A stretch of 64,000 nucleotides of DNA, from assembly GCA_035999765.1 (NCBI GenBank), contig CP108521.1, forward strand, positions 9,238,001 through 9,302,000. The letters run 5' to 3'. Positions within the stretch are counted from its first letter, which is position 1; each line of letters opens with the position of its first letter. The notes under the pieces were generated by a model that ran no database searches, was not told where the DNA came from, and worked only from the letters and a program-made list of their open reading frames with translations. The position numbers were made by a program, and so were the translations under genes. Shown here in pieces: positions 1 through 56,911 of this stretch. This DNA is from Streptomyces sp. NBC_01231. Its GTDB lineage: Bacteria > Actinomycetota > Actinomycetes > Streptomycetales > Streptomycetaceae.

Positions 1-176
1 GCTGAGCCGCGCGCGAGGCGGGCGCACAACTGTCCACCCCGGCGAGTGAGCCGAGGGGGTGAGCCGGTGACGAACGCATGACCGCGCCGCGGCCCGAAGG
101 GCCGAGCACGGTCCGGGCTGGACACCGGCTGGAACGCCCCACAGGCGAACCGCCCGAACAGAGAGCGATTCGAGCC
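1..176. other. Left edge, no gene resolved
   Basis: Two frames stay open from the first base (one closes with TGA at 47-49, another at 79-81), so this may hold the last residues of a gene lying mostly outside the window. Neither tail is recognisable. I see no clear promoter for the operon that follows, so its transcription may start further upstream. Confidence 0.4.
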
Positions 177-929
177 ATGACGCACGCAGGCGCCGCGCCC
201 GCCACCCCACGATCGACACTCGTCATCACCGCGCACGCCGGGGACTTCGTATGGCGGGCCGGCGGAGCCATCGCCCTGGCCGCATCCCGCGGGGAGAAGG
301 CCACCATCGCCTGCCTGACCTTCGGCGAGCGGGGCGAGTCCGCCAAGGCCTGGCGCGAGGGCAGGCAACTGGACGAGATCAAGGCGATACGCCGGGACGA
401 GGCCGAGCGCGCCGCCGCCACCCTCGGTGCCGAGGTCCGCTTCTTCGACGCCGGCGACTATCCCCTCGTGGCCACCGCCGAGTTGACCGACCGGCTCGTC
501 GCCCTCCACCGCGAGACCCAGCCCGACATCGTGCTCACCCACCCGGTCGAGGACCCGTACAACGGCGACCACCCGGCCGCCAACCGCATGGCACTGGAGT
601 CCCGGATCCTCGCCCAGGCCATCGGCTACCCGGGGGAGGGCGAGATCATCGGAGCCCCGCCGGTCTTCTACTTCGAGCCGCACCAGCCCGAGATGAGCGG
701 GTTCAGGCCCGAGGTCCTGCTCGACATCACCGAGGTGTGGGACACCAAACGCAAGGCGATGGAGTGCCTCGGCGCCCAGCAGCACCTGTGGGACTACTAC
801 ACCGACCTCGCCGTGCGCCGGGGCGTCCAGCTCAAGCGCAACGCGGGCCCCAACCTGGGGCTGGCACACAAGACGATGGCCGAGGCGTACATGCGTCCGT
901 ACCCGCAGATCGCGAAGGAGCTGGCGTGA
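177..929 (+). CDS. galB: 4-oxalomesaconate hydratase, PIG-L/LmbE type
   Basis: 250 residues. The product should be a cytosolic zinc enzyme that hydrates 4-oxalomesaconate (or its keto form) to 4-carboxy-4-hydroxy-2-oxoadipate in the gallate/protocatechuate meta pathway. The N-terminal motif ITAHAGDFVWRAGG replaces the AHPDD metal motif of ordinary LmbE deacetylases, as I recall for Pseudomonas putida GalB, and FGERGESAKAWR follows. HPVEDPYNGDHPAAN gives further metal and substrate residues. I chose the ATG after AGAGAG; an upstream ATG at 78 would add a proline/arginine-rich stretch without homology. The neighbours encode the next aldolase and the preceding tautomerase, which makes the GalB assignment strong. 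Confidence 0.88.
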   Translation: MTHAGAAPATPRSTLVITAHAGDFVWRAGGAIALAASRGEKATIACLTFGERGESAKAWREGRQLDEIKAIRRDEAERAAATLGAEVRFFDAGDYPLVATAELTDRLVALHRETQPDIVLTHPVEDPYNGDHPAANRMALESRILAQAIGYPGEGEIIGAPPVFYFEPHQPEMSGFRPEVLLDITEVWDTKRKAMECLGAQQHLWDYYTDLAVRRGVQLKRNAGPNLGLAHKTMAEAYMRPYPQIAKELA

Positions 930-1029
930 GCGAGCTGAGGTGCGGCGGAGGCGGGGGAGCCGGGGAGCGAAACGGAGTGGGCCCTTGGCCGCGGCGGAGC
1001 CTAGGCGGAGCTCCACAGAAGGAGGAAGC

Positions 1030-1734
1030 GTGAGTGGCGTGATCGTCACCAACCCGCCGAAGGCCGATCCGAAGGACGTCGAGGCGCTCGCCGGGTTCGG
1101 CGTGGCCACCGTCAGCGAGGCGCTGGGCCGAACCGGCCTGCTCGGGCCGGAGATCCGTCCCGTCCAGCAGGGCGTACGAGTCGCCGGCACCGCCGTCACC
1201 GTGCTCAGCTGGCCCGGCGACAACCTTATGATCCACGCGGCCGTGGAGCAGTGCGGCGAGGGCGACCTCCTGGTCGTCACCACCACCTCCCCGTCCACCG
1301 ACGGCATGTTCGGAGAGCTGTTCGCCACCGCGCTCCGACAGCGGGGTGTGCGCGGCCTGATCATCAACGCCGGTATCCGCGACACGCAGGAACTGCGGGA
1401 CATGGGCTTCCCCGCCTGGTCCCGGGCGGTCTCCGCGCAGGGCACCGTCAAGGCCACCGGGGGTTCGGTCAACGTCCCGGTCGCGATCGACGGACAGGTC
1501 ATCCGCCCCGGCGACGTGATCCTCGCCGACGACGACGGCGTGGTGGTCGTCCCGCGCGAGCGTGCCCGCGCCACCGTGAGCGCCTCCGAGGCCCGGGAGG
1601 CCAAGGAGGCGGGAGCCCGTGCCGCCTTCCTCGGTGGTCAACTGGGCCTGGACCGCTACGGGTTGCGCGAGACACTGCAACGTCTCGGCGTGCGGTACCA
1701 GACCCACGAGGAGTACGAGGGGGAGCGGCCGTGA
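1030..1734 (+). CDS. galC: 4-carboxy-4-hydroxy-2-oxoadipate aldolase (RraA-like)
   Basis: 234 residues. A class II, divalent-metal-dependent pyruvate aldolase that should split 4-carboxy-4-hydroxy-2-oxoadipate into oxaloacetate and pyruvate, the last step of the pathway. RraA/ProA/LigK fold: the motif GLIINAGIRDTQELRDMGFPAW holds the conserved Arg-Asp pair (about residues 117-118) for substrate and metal. The C-terminal part VIRPGDVILADDDGVVVVP is typical of the family. The GTG start is fixed by GAAGGAGGAAG immediately upstream; the open frame extends further 5' but without homology. The stop overlaps the next start (GTGA), so translation is probably coupled. Confidence 0.88.
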   Translation: MSGVIVTNPPKADPKDVEALAGFGVATVSEALGRTGLLGPEIRPVQQGVRVAGTAVTVLSWPGDNLMIHAAVEQCGEGDLLVVTTTSPSTDGMFGELFATALRQRGVRGLIINAGIRDTQELRDMGFPAWSRAVSAQGTVKATGGSVNVPVAIDGQVIRPGDVILADDDGVVVVPRERARATVSASEAREAKEAGARAAFLGGQLGLDRYGLRETLQRLGVRYQTHEEYEGERP

Positions 1735-2843
1735 CCCGCGATTCCGACGGGGTGCGCTGCCTGCTGATGCGGGGCGGCACCTCCAAGGGCGCCTACTTCC
1801 TCGCCGACGACCTCCCCGCCGAACCGGCCTCGCGTGATGCGCTGTTGCTGCGCGTCATGGGCAGCCCGGACGAGCGGCAGATCGACGGCCTGGGCGGCGC
1901 TCACCCGCTCACCAGCAAGGTGGCCGTGGTCGCGCCCTCGACCGCCCCGGATGTCGACGTGGACTATCTGTTCCTTCAAGTCGGCGTCGACAAGCCTGAG
2001 GTGAGTGACCGTCAGAACTGCGGGAACATCCTCGCCGGCGTCGGCCCGTTCGCCGTCGAGTGCGGGCTCGTGCCGGCGGGGGAGGAGCGGACCTCCGTCC
2101 GTATCCGCATGGTCAACACCGGTGACCATGCGACGGCGACCTTCCCGACCCCCGGCGGCCGGGTGCGCTACATCGGGGACGCCGAGATCTCGGGCGTGCC
2201 CGGGACGGCCGCGCCGGTCGTGATCGAGTTCCCACCCGGCGCCGGGAAGCTGCTGCCCACCGGCAACGTCCGGGACGAGATCGACGGCACGCCGGTGACC
2301 TGCGTGGACAACGGCATGCCCACGGTCCTCGTCGAGGCCGCCTCGCTCAAGGTCTCCGGCTATGAGCCGCCCGCCGAACTGGAGGCCGACCAGGAGCTGG
2401 CCGACCGGCTGCGCACGATCCGTCTGGAGGCGGCCCGCCTGATGGGCCTCGGTGACGTCTCGAACGCCACCGTGCCCAAGCTCAGCCTGCTCGCCCCGCC
2501 CCGTGAGGGGGGCGCGATCACCACCCGCACCTTCATTCCGGTGCGCTGCCACCCGTCGATCGGGGTGCTGGGCGCGGCGAGTGTGGCGGCGGGCCTGCGT
2601 ATCGACGGCGGTGTGGGCGCGGACCTCGCGGCACTCGACGCCGACAGCGACCGTGTTCGCATCGAGCATCCCACCGGATTCCTGGACATCGAGAGCAGCC
2701 TCGGGGCCACTCCCGCCGGCCTGCCCACCGCCCGCCGTACCGCCGTGGTCCGCACGGCCCGCAAGATCTTCGACGGCCTCGTCTTCCCCCGGTCCGCCGA
2801 GACGGCAGAGATCCCCCCGCACCCCCAAGGAGGCCAAGGATGA
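1731..2843 (+). CDS. galD: 4-oxalomesaconate tautomerase, PrpF family
   Basis: 370 residues. Diaminopimelate-epimerase-fold isomerase of the PrpF family, expected to convert the keto and enol tautomers of 4-oxalomesaconate so that GalB can use it. The N-terminus carries the family signature LMRGGTSKGAYF, and a second conserved block lies at LGGAHPLTSKVAVV. NCGNILAGVGPFAVECGLV is also typical. GTG is taken as start because it overlaps the aldolase stop; the longer open frame upstream lies inside the aldolase gene. The stop overlaps the next ATG (ATGA). PrpF itself, 2-methylaconitate isomerase, is the alternative, but no methylcitrate genes are nearby. Confidence 0.87.
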   Translation: MTRDSDGVRCLLMRGGTSKGAYFLADDLPAEPASRDALLLRVMGSPDERQIDGLGGAHPLTSKVAVVAPSTAPDVDVDYLFLQVGVDKPEVSDRQNCGNILAGVGPFAVECGLVPAGEERTSVRIRMVNTGDHATATFPTPGGRVRYIGDAEISGVPGTAAPVVIEFPPGAGKLLPTGNVRDEIDGTPVTCVDNGMPTVLVEAASLKVSGYEPPAELEADQELADRLRTIRLEAARLMGLGDVSNATVPKLSLLAPPREGGAITTRTFIPVRCHPSIGVLGAASVAAGLRIDGGVGADLAALDADSDRVRIEHPTGFLDIESSLGATPAGLPTARRTAVVRTARKIFDGLVFPRSAETAEIPPHPQGGQG

Positions 2844-3790
2844 CTCCGCCGCTCGGCGACATCGCCCATGTCGGACACGCCCAGTTGTTCACCCCGGACC
2901 TGGACGCCAGCGTCGCCTTCTTCACCGACTTTCTCGGCCTCACCGTCAACGGTCGGAACGGCGACACGGTCTACCTGCGGACCTTCGACGACTACGAGCA
3001 CCACAGCCTGGTGCTCACCGCCCGTGAGCAGCCCGGCCTCGGCCGGCTCGCCCTGCGCACCTCCAGCGAGGCGGCCCTCGAGCGCCGTGTCAAGGCGGTC
3101 GAGGAGGCGGGCGGCACCGGCCACTGGGCCGAGGACGAGCCGGGCCTCGGCAAGCTGTACGTCACCACCGACCCGGACGGCCACGAGCACGCCCTGTACT
3201 GGGAGAGCGAGCACTACCGGGCCCCCGAGGAGCTCAGGCCGGCGCTCAAGAACCAGCCGCAGGCCAAGCCCAACCGGGGCGTGGGCGTACGGCGTCTGGA
3301 CCACATCAACTTCCTCGCCGCCGACGTGCTCGCCAACTCCGAGTTCCAGCAGGACGTGCTGGGCGCCCGGCCCACCGAGCAGATCCGGCTGGACACGGGC
3401 ACGGTCGCGGCGCGCTGGCTGACGTACACGAACAAGTCGTACGACGTCGTCTACACCTCGGACTGGACCGGCAGTGCCGGGCGGTTGCACCACATCGCCT
3501 TCGCGACCGACACCCGCGAGGACATCCTGCGCGCGGCCGACCTCGCGATCGACAGCAGCGTGTTCATCGAGACGGGCCCGCACAAGCACGCCATCCAGCA
3601 GACGTTCTTCCTGTACGTCTACGAGCCCGGCGGCAACCGCATCGAGCTGTGCAACCCGCTCACGCGGCTCGTCCTGGCCCCCGACTGGCCGCTGATCACC
3701 TGGACCGAGGAGGAGCGGAAGAAAGGGCAGGCCTGGGGCCTGAAGACCATCGAGTCCTTCCACACGCACGGAACGCCACCGGTCGCGTAA
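2840..3790 (+). CDS. Type I extradiol (VOC) ring-cleavage dioxygenase
   Basis: 316 residues, two vicinal-oxygen-chelate modules. The C-terminal module keeps the extradiol dioxygenase pattern: His155 in LDHINF, His217/218 in RLHHIAF and Glu269 in YEPGGNRIEL as iron ligands, with His250 and Tyr259 at the second-shell positions of the PROSITE signature. It should therefore be an active Fe(II) ring-cleaving enzyme. Its three upstream operon partners degrade 4-oxalomesaconate, the direct product of gallate 4,5-cleavage, so gallate or a close relative is the likely substrate. The known gallate dioxygenases GalA and DesB belong to the unrelated LigB family, so this would be a non-orthologous replacement. 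Automatic annotation would say catechol 2,3-dioxygenase. Confidence 0.85.
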   Translation: MTPPLGDIAHVGHAQLFTPDLDASVAFFTDFLGLTVNGRNGDTVYLRTFDDYEHHSLVLTAREQPGLGRLALRTSSEAALERRVKAVEEAGGTGHWAEDEPGLGKLYVTTDPDGHEHALYWESEHYRAPEELRPALKNQPQAKPNRGVGVRRLDHINFLAADVLANSEFQQDVLGARPTEQIRLDTGTVAARWLTYTNKSYDVVYTSDWTGSAGRLHHIAFATDTREDILRAADLAIDSSVFIETGPHKHAIQQTFFLYVYEPGGNRIELCNPLTRLVLAPDWPLITWTEEERKKGQAWGLKTIESFHTHGTPPVA

Positions 3791-3827
3791 CGCCCCCTGT
3801 CGCCCATCTGGCACCTCGTCGAGAACT

Positions 3828-3890
3828 CAATTGTCGATGAGATTGTTGACAAAAACGTTGACGTCTATCGGTACCCGTCTCTAGCGTCGG
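3828..3890 (+). promoter_or_regulatory. Promoter and possible operator of the AAHS transporter
   Basis: TTGACG at 3858-3863, an 18-bp spacer and TAGCGT at 3882-3887 form a reasonable vegetative promoter. Just upstream is an inverted repeat TTGTC (3831-3835) / GACAA (3848-3852), and ATTGT occurs at 3830 and 3842, one helical turn apart. This resembles binding sites of GntR or MarR regulators of aromatic catabolism, but no regulator gene is adjacent in the window. Confidence 0.5.
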
Positions 3891-3921
3891 GGGACCCCGC
3901 TCGCACGAGAGGAATACAAGG

Positions 3922-5250
3922 ATGTCCTCCTCCCCCGCCCCGTCCGCCCGCGGCAGCAGACTGGCCCTGCTGGTCGTCGGCCTGTGCTGGCTGGCCGTGC
4001 TCTTCGACGGCCTCGACATGTTCATCTACGGCTCGGTGCTGCCGCACCTGCTGGAGACGAAGACCTTCGGCCTCACCCCGGACACCGCCGGCGACCTCGG
4101 CAGCTACGCCACCTTCGGCATGCTGGTCGGTGCCCTGACCGCCGGCACGATCGCCGACCGGGTCGGCCGCAAGACGCTGATGGTCGCCTCCGTGACGCTC
4201 TTCTCGCTGGCCTCCGGCGTGTGCGCGACGGCGGACAGCGTGGCGGTCTTCGGCCTCGGCCGGACCCTGGCAGGCGTCGGTCTCGGCGGCCTGCTGCCCA
4301 CCGCGATCAGCATGGTCTCCGACTACGCCCCGCGCGGCCGCGCCGCCATCGTCATCGGCCTCCTGATGACCGCGCACCACGCGGGCGGCATCCTCTCCGC
4401 CTATGTGGCCAAGTGGCTCATCGACCCGGTCGGCTGGCGGGCCGCCTTCTGGGTCTGCGTGCTCCCGCTGCTCTTCGCCCCGGTGCTCGCCAGGTTCCTG
4501 CCCGAGTCGCTGAGCTTCCTGGTCGCCAAGGGCCGTACCGACGACGCCCGCACGTTGGCCGACCGCTACGACGTCGAGCTTCCGGCCGCGAAGTCGGGCA
4601 AGCGGGGCGCGGCCGACCGCTGGACCAACCTGGTCGACCTCTTCCGTGGCGGCGAGTGGATCCAGACCCTGCTGTACTGGCTCGCCTCCTTCGGCGGCCT
4701 CCTCCTGGTCTACGGCGTCGCCACCTGGCTGCCCACCTTGATGCGGGCCGAGGGCTACGAACTGGGCTCGGCCCTGTCCTTCGTGGTCGTCTTCAACCTC
4801 GGCGGCATCGTGGGCATGCTGGTCGCAGGGCGGGCCGCGGACCGCTTCGGAGCTCCGCGCATCTCGGCGATCTGGTTCGCCCTGACCGCCGCCGGGGTGT
4901 TCCTGCTCAGCGTGCACATGCCGATGAGCGTGACCATGGTCGTCGTCTTCCTGACGGGCGTGTTCCTCAACAGCGCCCAGACGATGATCTACGCGACGGT
5001 GTCGATCCGCTCCCACGCCGACAACCGAGCCACTGCCGTCGGCTGGACCTCAGGCATGGGCCGCTTCGGCGCCGTCTTCGGGCCCTGGCTGGGCGGCCAG
5101 TTGCTCGCCGCGGGCAACGGCGACTGGGGCTTCACCGCCTTCGCGCTCGCCGGAGTGTCGTCCATGGTCTTCATCGGCATCGCCGCGGTGCGCGGTTCCA
5201 AGGAAGCGTCGAGGGGCGTCGCCGATCAGGAACTGGTCAGCGCTCACTGA
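3922..5250 (+). CDS. galT: MFS aromatic acid:H+ symporter (AAHS), probable gallate uptake
   Basis: 442 residues with twelve predicted membrane segments in two six-helix halves and a hydrophilic middle loop (about 205-240). Helix 1 carries DGLDMFIYG, the acidic DGxD signature of the aromatic acid:H+ symporters (PcaK, BenK, GalT). GTIADRVGRK is the MFS loop 2-3 motif. An SD-like GAGGAA precedes the ATG. It lies 131 bp behind the ring-cleavage operon with its own promoter, so it is the likely importer of that pathway's substrate. Specificity cannot be read from the sequence; gallate is inferred from context. Confidence 0.85.
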   Translation: MSSSPAPSARGSRLALLVVGLCWLAVLFDGLDMFIYGSVLPHLLETKTFGLTPDTAGDLGSYATFGMLVGALTAGTIADRVGRKTLMVASVTLFSLASGVCATADSVAVFGLGRTLAGVGLGGLLPTAISMVSDYAPRGRAAIVIGLLMTAHHAGGILSAYVAKWLIDPVGWRAAFWVCVLPLLFAPVLARFLPESLSFLVAKGRTDDARTLADRYDVELPAAKSGKRGAADRWTNLVDLFRGGEWIQTLLYWLASFGGLLLVYGVATWLPTLMRAEGYELGSALSFVVVFNLGGIVGMLVAGRAADRFGAPRISAIWFALTAAGVFLLSVHMPMSVTMVVVFLTGVFLNSAQTMIYATVSIRSHADNRATAVGWTSGMGRFGAVFGPWLGGQLLAAGNGDWGFTAFALAGVSSMVFIGIAAVRGSKEASRGVADQELVSAH

Positions 5251-55528: not shown

Positions 55529-56911
55529 TCACGTCTGCTCCGCGAGGGGGCGCGCCGTCCCGCCCGCACCCTCGTGTCCTGCGGTCTCCTCCGCTCCCGG
55601 TGCGCGGGGAACCGCCCCGACCAGCAGGGCGCCTATGACACCGGGTACGGCGAGTGCGTAGAAGTTCCACTGGAACGCCAGCCCGGCTCCGATGATGAGC
55701 CCGAGCAGCGGCGGGGCGAGCATCGAGCCGAGGCGTCCGAATCCCAGCGTCCAGCCCATCGCCGTGGCTCCCATGCGCACCGGATAGTGCTTGGAGACAT
55801 AGGCGAGGACGAACGACTGTGTGCCCATCGCCCCGACTCCGCCCAGTGCGACGGCGGCGTACAACACCGTCGTGGGCAGTCGCAGACTGAGCAGGAGGAC
55901 GGCCACGCTGGACACGAGGTAGGTCGTGGTGATGATCGGCTTGGAGCCGAGCCGGTCGGCCGCCATGGCGATGAGAAGCGTGCCGACGACGGCTCCGATG
56001 TTGAACACGAGGAGGAAGCCGAGAGAGGAGCCCGCGGAGTAACCGGCGCGGCGCATGATCTCCGGGAGCCAGGTGTTGAAGCCGTAGATCATGAACAGGC
56101 ACAGACACGTCATCACCAGGAAGCACAGAGTCGCCACGACATAGCTCCGCGAGAAGAGGGCCCGTACCGGCGACATGCTCTCCGAGCCGCCGGACGGGCT
56201 GTGCTCCGACGCCGGTACGGCTTGCCGCGTGTCGTCCGAGGTGATGTCCCAGCGGTCGGCCACCCGCTCCGCGTCGGCGTGCCGCCCCTTCGCCCGAAGG
56301 AACGTGATCGACTCCGGCAGAAACCTGATGGTCAGCGGCAGGACGAGGAGGAGCGGGAGGAGGCCGAGCAGGAACATCGCCTGCCAATCGAACCGTGGCA
56401 TCACGAAGATCGCGGTGAGAGCGGCGACGATGCCGCCCACGGGGAAGCCGCTGAAGAGGATCGCGAAGACCAGGTTGCGCGTCCTGGGGTGCGAGTACTC
56501 GCCCACGAGCGCGCTCGCGGTCGGCAGCACGCCGCCGAGACCGAGGCCGGCGAGGAAGCGGAAGAGGCCGAACACCTCCGGAGAGGTGGCCGCCGCACAC
56601 AGGCCCGTCATCAGCGAGAACCAGATCAGGCAGCCGATCAGCGACCTGCGCCGGCCCAGGGTGTCGGTGAGCGTGCCGACGGTCGTGGCTCCGACGAGCA
56701 TCCCGATGAGGGCGAAGGAACCGATCAGGCCGGCACCGGCGGGAGTGAGGGCCCACCCCGGTTCGTGGAGCAGGGACGGAATCACCGCGCCGTAGACGAC
56801 GACGTCGTACCCATCGGCTACGACGGTGATCCCGCAGATCGCGAGTACCAGCAGTGTCACCGGGGGCCAGGTGACACTGCCACGACTTCCTCTGCGACTG
56901 CTTTCGTGCAT
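55529..56911 (-). CDS. MFS aromatic acid:H+ symporter (AAHS)
   Basis: 460 residues, twelve helices. Helix 1 carries VADGYDVVVYGAVIPSL, the AAHS DGxD/E-type signature. GTLTDTLGRRRSL is the loop 2-3 motif, and FRFLAGLGLGGVLPTASAL is typical of helix 4. It should import an aromatic or related carboxylate with protons. GAGAGGAA lies 5 bp before the ATG. Two GTG-N4-CAC dyads lie upstream, one over the predicted -10, so it probably belongs to the same GntR regulon as the FAH and VOC genes at the right end. Confidence 0.85.
   Translation of the reverse strand: MHESSRRGSRGSVTWPPVTLLVLAICGITVVADGYDVVVYGAVIPSLLHEPGWALTPAGAGLIGSFALIGMLVGATTVGTLTDTLGRRRSLIGCLIWFSLMTGLCAAATSPEVFGLFRFLAGLGLGGVLPTASALVGEYSHPRTRNLVFAILFSGFPVGGIVAALTAIFVMPRFDWQAMFLLGLLPLLLVLPLTIRFLPESITFLRAKGRHADAERVADRWDITSDDTRQAVPASEHSPSGGSESMSPVRALFSRSYVVATLCFLVMTCLCLFMIYGFNTWLPEIMRRAGYSAGSSLGFLLVFNIGAVVGTLLIAMAADRLGSKPIITTTYLVSSVAVLLLSLRLPTTVLYAAVALGGVGAMGTQSFVLAYVSKHYPVRMGATAMGWTLGFGRLGSMLAPPLLGLIIGAGLAFQWNFYALAVPGVIGALLVGAVPRAPGAEETAGHEGAGGTARPLAEQT

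Follow-up and report, generated by a model that had tools for sequence, protein, structure and literature searches.

Hydrolysable tannins are built around gallate, which is also one of the compounds at which the degradation of syringyl lignin ends. In Pseudomonas putida, the gal cluster encodes the LigB-type dioxygenase GalA and carries a LysR regulator. The gallate, methylgallate and protocatechuate dioxygenases LigAB, DesB and DesZ belong to the LigB superfamily as well (PMC4250580, in excerpt). The excerpted description of AromaDeg likewise places gallate dioxygenases in the LigB superfamily, and its list of type I substrates, given as "among others", does not include gallate (PMC4250580). 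No type I, or VOC, gallate dioxygenase was seen among the papers listed by searches of an open-licence PMC library, as far as their excerpted texts go, with subscription papers and preprints outside this scope. We analyzed a stretch of 64,000 nucleotides from the soil bacterium Streptomyces sp. NBC_01231 (positions 9,238,001-9,302,000 of CP108521.1, a single contig of 11.3 Mb), hereafter called the window, which begins with a gal-type operon containing a VOC dioxygenase gene. Very probably, this VOC-fold enzyme is a gallate dioxygenase that replaces the LigB-type GalA. Superfamily and pathway are both known, and what is new is the substrate predicted for the enzyme; we regard it as a non-orthologous replacement and not as a new kind of system.

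Five open genes occupy the plus strand between window positions 177 and 5250, at the positions given by the initial annotation. The first (177-929) encodes a GalB-type 4-oxalomesaconate (OMA) hydratase of the PIG-L fold, recognized by the Pfam PIG-L model and by a match of 269 bits to PDB 5cgz, the next entry scoring 38 bits. It is followed by galC (1030-1734), encoding a CHA aldolase (NF006731, 328 bits for a cut-off of 179; PDB 3noj, 258 bits), and by galD (1731-2843), encoding an OMA tautomerase of the GalD/LigU type (NF033377, 494 bits for a cut-off of 440; PDB 6p3j, 373 bits). The gene of the proposed gallate dioxygenase (2840-3790) comes next, and an MFS transporter gene (3922-5250) closes the set. 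Since galC and galD, as well as galD and the VOC gene, overlap by 4 bases each, these three genes are probably co-translated. Upstream, the last bases of a GntR/FCD regulator gene (gntR; Pfam GntR and FCD; plus strand, genome 9237355-9238005, L003:14355-15005) form window positions 1-5. NCBIfam models and PDB sequence matches place the products of galB, galC and galD all in OMA metabolism. The initial annotation had described an operon with equivalents of GalB, the aldolase and GalD followed by an AAHS (aromatic acid:H+ symporter) transporter; the Pfam, NCBIfam and PDB matches confirm this, the transporter being nearest to the AAHS family with TIGR00895 as its best model (288 bits), below the cut-off of 418.6. 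The locus shares with the P. putida gal cluster GalB, the CHA aldolase, the OMA tautomerase, an aromatic-acid-type transporter and the end of the pathway, but has a VOC enzyme and a GntR/FCD regulator where P. putida has a LigB-type GalA and a LysR protein.

A complete gallate catabolic unit is the best explanation of this operon. Gallate would enter by the AAHS-like transporter, whose likely role is gallate uptake. The VOC dioxygenase would then bind the 3,4-diol of gallate on Fe(II) or Mn(II) and cleave the C4-C5 bond, a proposed 4,5-cleavage like that of LigAB, DesB and DesZ. Because C5 of gallate bears a hydroxyl, the product would be the carboxylate OMA instead of a semialdehyde. Tautomerase, GalB hydratase and aldolase would next convert OMA to pyruvate and oxaloacetate. 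We infer the substrate, the product, the metal and the direction of regulation, and it is the context that favours gallate over close analogues.

The dioxygenase has the two-module VOC fold of the type I extradiol dioxygenases. Its metal triad (His155, His218 and Glu269) aligned with residues 155, 214 and 267 of homoprotocatechuate 2,3-dioxygenase (HPCD) and was invariant in 40 aligned sequences, including the window enzyme. The intact two-module protein described by the initial annotation is confirmed, and the second ligand, for which His217 and His218 had both been offered, is His218 by the alignment to HPCD. The Pfam scan did not detect the LigB-superfamily catalytic domain (PF02900) in the protein, and LigB-fold chains did not occur among the 50 rows listed by a VIA-align structure comparison, which by itself does not prove them absent. 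Tyr201, invariant in the same 40 sequences, occupies the position of the second-sphere catalytic His200 of HPCD. To our knowledge, a natural Tyr at this position is unusual; a second-sphere His is a typical, not a strictly defining, type I feature, and Leu is found at this site in the paralogue L087. Without His200, the acceptor of the catechol proton, HPCD is described as vanishingly slow (PMC10760822, in excerpt). We propose that proton transfer falls to Tyr201 or to the extra hydroxyl of the substrate, whose carboxylate would be held by His248 and Arg276.

The combination of Tyr201, Thr/Ser245, His248 and Arg276 (Thr245 in the window enzyme) was found in all 23 aligned proteins with a neighbouring OMA tautomerase gene, and also in both Lig-type loci and in Thermus L151. 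Position 201 is His in five of five catechol-context loci, in PDB 3lm4 and in HPCD, none of which has His248. The Bacillota relatives have Tyr201 in 15 of 15 rows and lack His248 and Arg276; among proteins from clusters with a DUF6282 gene, six of seven have Tyr201 and one has His. We built a quick tree of 71 rows and a careful tree that omits 13 of them (long branches, outgroup-like rows and near-duplicates), including three of the five catechol-context rows and L137, the DUF6282-type row with His201. In the careful tree, the gal-type VOCs (32 rows) form one clade (bootstrap/SH-aLRT 99/97) with the Bacillota relatives as sister group (97/91). All five catechol-context rows of the quick tree, and the two of these kept in the careful tree, fall outside the clade.

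Among type I enzymes of known structure, AphC (7q2a), the Rhodococcus RHA1 enzyme (3lm4), XylE (1mpy) and HPCD (1f1x) belong to meta-cleavage operons, whereas the window enzyme belongs to a gallate-type operon; compared with 3lm4 and 1f1x, it has Tyr201 for the catalytic His in addition to Thr245, His248 and Arg276. The closest solved sequence is PDB 9wgj (361 bits), deposited as a "catechol 1,2-dioxygenase", which also has Tyr201. Over the 308 residues printed for it, 9wgj has 100% identity to the Geobacillus protein P0121, itself 53% identical to the window enzyme. However, this protein belongs to the Bacillota sister group and has Leu245, Ser248 and Tyr276, other Bacillota having mostly Phe245. 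No Bacillota record appeared among the best 15 of 314 plasmid records matching P0121. MhqO, a VOC ring-cleavage enzyme proposed for 5,5'-dehydrodivanillate, was considered and set aside, as its neighbours, a C-C hydrolase and an azoreductase, differ (PMC12673573, in excerpt). BLC23O is described as preferring 3-alkylcatechols (PMC8671467, in excerpt).

The operon is well conserved. At least 120 relatives are 72% or more identical to the window VOC protein (the best 120 of 7969 scored at E < 0.001). The order gntR-galB-galC-galD-VOC on one strand was kept in 76 of 80 Streptomyces loci, and in 63 a transporter gene follows the VOC gene at a distance of no more than 600 bp. Genes are missing in the other four: L058 is at a contig end, L063 and L084 have no galB, and L078 has neither galB nor galC. 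An OMA tautomerase above the cut-off was detected in nine of 396 sampled Actinomycetota genomes; eight were adjacent to a VOC gene and one was found with LigAB, so that one and the same place seems to be filled either by the VOC gene or by LigAB. In the LigAB case (G349), LigA, LigB, two amidohydrolases, an aldolase and a PobA-like gene surround the tautomerase.

The same dioxygenase occurs in other phyla. We opened 21 plasmid-collection loci, hand-picked from the best 60 of 317 matching records. In 19 of them the VOC protein showed 49-69% identity: 14 had an OMA tautomerase neighbour, two had LigJ- or LigAB-type neighbours with an aldolase, one (Thermus oshimai L151) had PIG-L and aldolase genes with a DUF6282 gene, and two had no such neighbour. 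The remaining two, with a VOC protein at 42-44% identity, lay among catechol meta-pathway genes. Pantoea L152 combines galB, galC, galD, a LysR gene and an AAHS transporter gene with the VOC gene, a Pseudomonas-like gal set in which VOC replaces galA. In Methylobacterium L150, the neighbour is of the LigJ type, an unrelated OMA hydratase (631 bits to PDB 2gwg, "4-oxalomesaconate hydratase"), and no PIG-L hydratase was found within 19 kb. Two unrelated OMA hydratases thus adjoin the same dioxygenase, which suggests that its product is OMA or lies one step away. A gene for a DUF1932 (6-phosphogluconate-dehydrogenase-like) protein recurs beside gal-type VOC clusters of bacteria other than Streptomyces (L149, L150, L152-L154, L156, L184-L186, L188 and L193).

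A tannase gene accompanies some of these operons. Tannase releases gallate itself. In Agrobacterium L153, from walnut, it lies directly after the OMA tautomerase gene (Pfam, 438 bits). By tblastn, a tannase lies about 300 bp before gntR in four of the 80 Streptomyces loci; Pfam confirmed three, of which L017 holds only a C-terminal piece, and L052 stands by tblastn alone (308 bits, the frame tested giving no Pfam match). We extended the comparison to 199 Streptomyces genomes, taking E < 1e-50 as a strong tannase match (28 genomes) and E < 1e-90 as the mark of a VOC-bearing genome. Strong matches occurred in 15 of 46 VOC-bearing and 13 of 153 VOC-less genomes, an odds ratio of 5.2 in a Fisher test that ignores relatedness (p 1.4e-4). 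The threshold excluded the VOC-bearing genome G486, with a partial tannase (1.6e-40); any tannase match at all was obtained in 102 of the 199 genomes, most being weak and partial. In G406, G458 and G460, 3.6-3.8 kb separate the tannase from the VOC gene.

The upstream GntR/FCD gene is the probable regulator of the gal operon. The pattern ATTGTTGACAA has exactly two copies in the 11.3 Mb genome, one at genome 9237293-9237303, about 50 bases before the start of gntR, and the second at window 3842-3852 on the plus strand, before the transporter gene. Its core TTGTTGACAA precedes gntR in 68 of 79 loci and was detected in 37 of 51 regions before the transporter gene, or in all 51 when two symmetric variants were included, and in none of the 76 gntR-galB gaps used as control; these counts cover those of the 80 Streptomyces loci with the needed genes located. 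The simplest reading is a GntR regulon of two transcription units with ATTGTTGACAA as putative operator, and a GntR repressor bound to it would control both.

We then considered other ring-cleavage systems in the genome. The window and the 15 kb to its left were searched by tblastn with 41 reference pathway proteins, including LigA, LigB, LigI- and LigJ-type amidohydrolases and DUF1932 dehydrogenases. Matches in the window were limited to the gal genes, an AAHS-like transporter (55580-56860) and weak regulator matches; only gntR and galB matched in the 15 kb. None of the five types just named had a match in either region. The negative result for LigAB covers these two regions; a genome-wide search with LigA gave no match in any control genome. 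LigC belongs to the Gfo/Idh/MocA superfamily, of which four dehydrogenases are encoded in the upstream 15 kb. The NCBIfam models nearest to them are those of inositol or levoglucosan dehydrogenases, with every score below cut-off; for two of the four, PmdC, which we take to be the LigC-type PDB chain, scored 43 and 46 bits, the best chains scoring 286 and 106 bits. Although serious LigC candidates by superfamily, the four are by these models nearer to sugar dehydrogenases and were set aside. Nor was a homologue of these four found in the window by tblastn, in which no LigC sequence itself served as query. LigB domains are also encoded by two genes at other places in the genome; these were set aside because their nearest models are DOPA-dioxygenase and HpaD, with scores below those cut-offs. 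The initial annotation had found no LigC or LigI equivalent in the window and had called for inspection of the DNA to its left for LigAB, LigC or LigI: none was recognized in either region, LigI having been sought by tblastn and LigC in the window via superfamily members only. The gallate pathway with a non-orthologous VOC dioxygenase that it proposed gains support from the replacement of GalB by LigJ, the tannase neighbours, the near mutual exclusion with LigAB, the dedicated operator and the active-site signature.

Four other substrates were weighed. The least improbable alternative, though an unlikely one, is that the enzyme acts chiefly on 3-O-methylgallate or a galloyl ester, derived from syringyl lignin or tannin, and only secondarily on gallate, the product being the OMA methyl ester or, after cyclisation, 2-pyrone-4,6-dicarboxylate (PDC). 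Excerpts from two papers are in its favour: P. putida GalA converts 3-O-methylgallate to 4-carboxy-2-hydroxy-6-methoxy-6-oxohexa-2,4-dienoate (CHMOD) and PDC (PMC12481942), and Streptomyces VanAB yields 3-O-methylgallate and gallate from syringate (PMC9867520). In Agrobacterium L190, a LigI-type PDC hydrolase (351 bits to PDB 4d8l) is encoded close to the VOC gene. However, tblastn detected no hydrolase of this type in the window or in the 15 kb before it, and the tannase neighbours point to gallate itself. The downstream OMA enzymes are common to the protocatechuate and gallate routes, and the enzyme might thus be a VOC-type protocatechuate 4,5-dioxygenase, OMA being made by an unlinked dehydrogenase and lactonase. 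The DUF1932 dehydrogenase beside the cluster in several relatives fits this proposal, but no such dehydrogenase or lactonase was recognized in the operon, and the three reference DUF1932 proteins matched none of the 80 Streptomyces loci by tblastn. Moreover, adjacent intradiol genes at genome 9089636-9090589 look like pcaGH, so that protocatechuate probably has another route, and we hold this substrate to be quite improbable. Slightly less credible still is a conventional 2,3-dioxygenase of catechol or alkylcatechols, placed in a gal operon by chance. The protein does pass the catechol 2,3-dioxygenase model TIGR03211 (325.4 bits for a cut-off of 320.2), and the closest folds, AphC and XylE-type enzymes, act on catechols. 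Against this, the five relatives found next to meta-pathway genes branch outside the clade and all have His201; tblastn of the window gave no match to DmpG-type aldolase, acetaldehyde dehydrogenase or fumarylacetoacetate-hydrolase-type reference genes; and an operon deprived of the VOC enzyme would have no ring-opening step. Scarcely credible is a different trihydroxylated benzoate derivative whose route would join at OMA or a homologue. Although the aldolase family also cleaves 4-hydroxy-4-methyl-2-oxoglutarate (PMC5065237, in excerpt), the genes tested and found conserved across the 80 loci are those of the regulator, hydratase, aldolase, tautomerase and dioxygenase, to which 63 loci add the transporter, and the tannase association points to gallate.

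Besides the catechol model and folds, several observations weigh against the gallate assignment. Tyr201 replaces a His said to be essential for the HPCD rate (PMC10760822, in excerpt) and is not diagnostic of gallate, since it is common to the Bacillota group and to six of seven DUF6282-type rows. The NF033377 match is no proof of OMA as substrate because one control genome (E. coli or B. subtilis) also exceeds that cut-off. With one mismatch allowed, ATTGTTGACAA has 13 sites and the reversed control pattern 10, so that only the exact pair is telling. L063, L078 and L084, which are not cut by a contig end at that point, have no galB beside the VOC gene. In addition to the relatedness left out of the Fisher test, the four Streptomyces loci with a tannase are possibly closely related; 31 of the 46 VOC-bearing Streptomyces have no strong tannase match, and the source genome has no tannase at all in the search that matched 102 of 199 genomes. 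Finally, Roseomonas L149 has a LigAB pair and the VOC gene side by side. In this Roseomonas gilardii plasmid (L149:7052-9969), genes for LigA, LigB, an alpha/beta hydrolase and a gal-type VOC adjoin; perhaps they represent protocatechuate and gallate branches with one common lower pathway.

A wider proposal, for and against which we see equal weight, is that a whole second class of gallate dioxygenases exists on the VOC fold, from Actinomycetota and Alpha- and Gammaproteobacteria to Deinococcota. It would lack the type I catalytic His, Tyr201 or the third substrate hydroxyl transferring the proton while His248 and Arg276 hold the carboxylate. If the gallate assignment is correct, gallate degraders in Streptomyces, Rhizobium, Agrobacterium and Pantoea escape gene surveys that use LigB-type GalA/DesB as marker, and the label "catechol 2,3-dioxygenase" is wrong for many proteins, which may degrade gallate. 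The natural His-to-Tyr change at the acid-base position would make a long-studied question of extradiol chemistry testable in a wild-type enzyme. The TIGR03211 match (window 2840-3787) is over the cut-off by five bits, and this model may misname many relatives.

A second type of VOC cluster was observed in Actinomycetota (L130-L135 and L137) and on the Thermus oshimai plasmid (L151:8965-13631). It comprises DUF6282, a PIG-L hydratase, a CHA-type aldolase, VOC, a DUF1932 dehydrogenase and GntR, with no match to the OMA tautomerase. It could be a VOC-based protocatechuate 4,5-route with DUF1932 and DUF6282 replacing LigC and LigI; if the second VOC class exists, these cousins would form a further undescribed VOC route to oxalomesaconate.

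In the window operon, the gntR-galB (30-160) and galB-galC (930-1029) spacers are GC-rich and about 100 bases longer than in most relatives examined. The former folds better than its shuffles (z -2.9) and the latter does not (z -0.5). By eye, similar inserts are present in L008 and L018, and the longer spacers are possibly small mobile repeats. The AAHS-like transporter at window 55580-56860, on the minus strand, is 39% identical to the gal transporter. An intradiol dioxygenase domain lies 3 kb past the window end (genome 9305079-9305531), and together the two perhaps mark another aromatic cluster.

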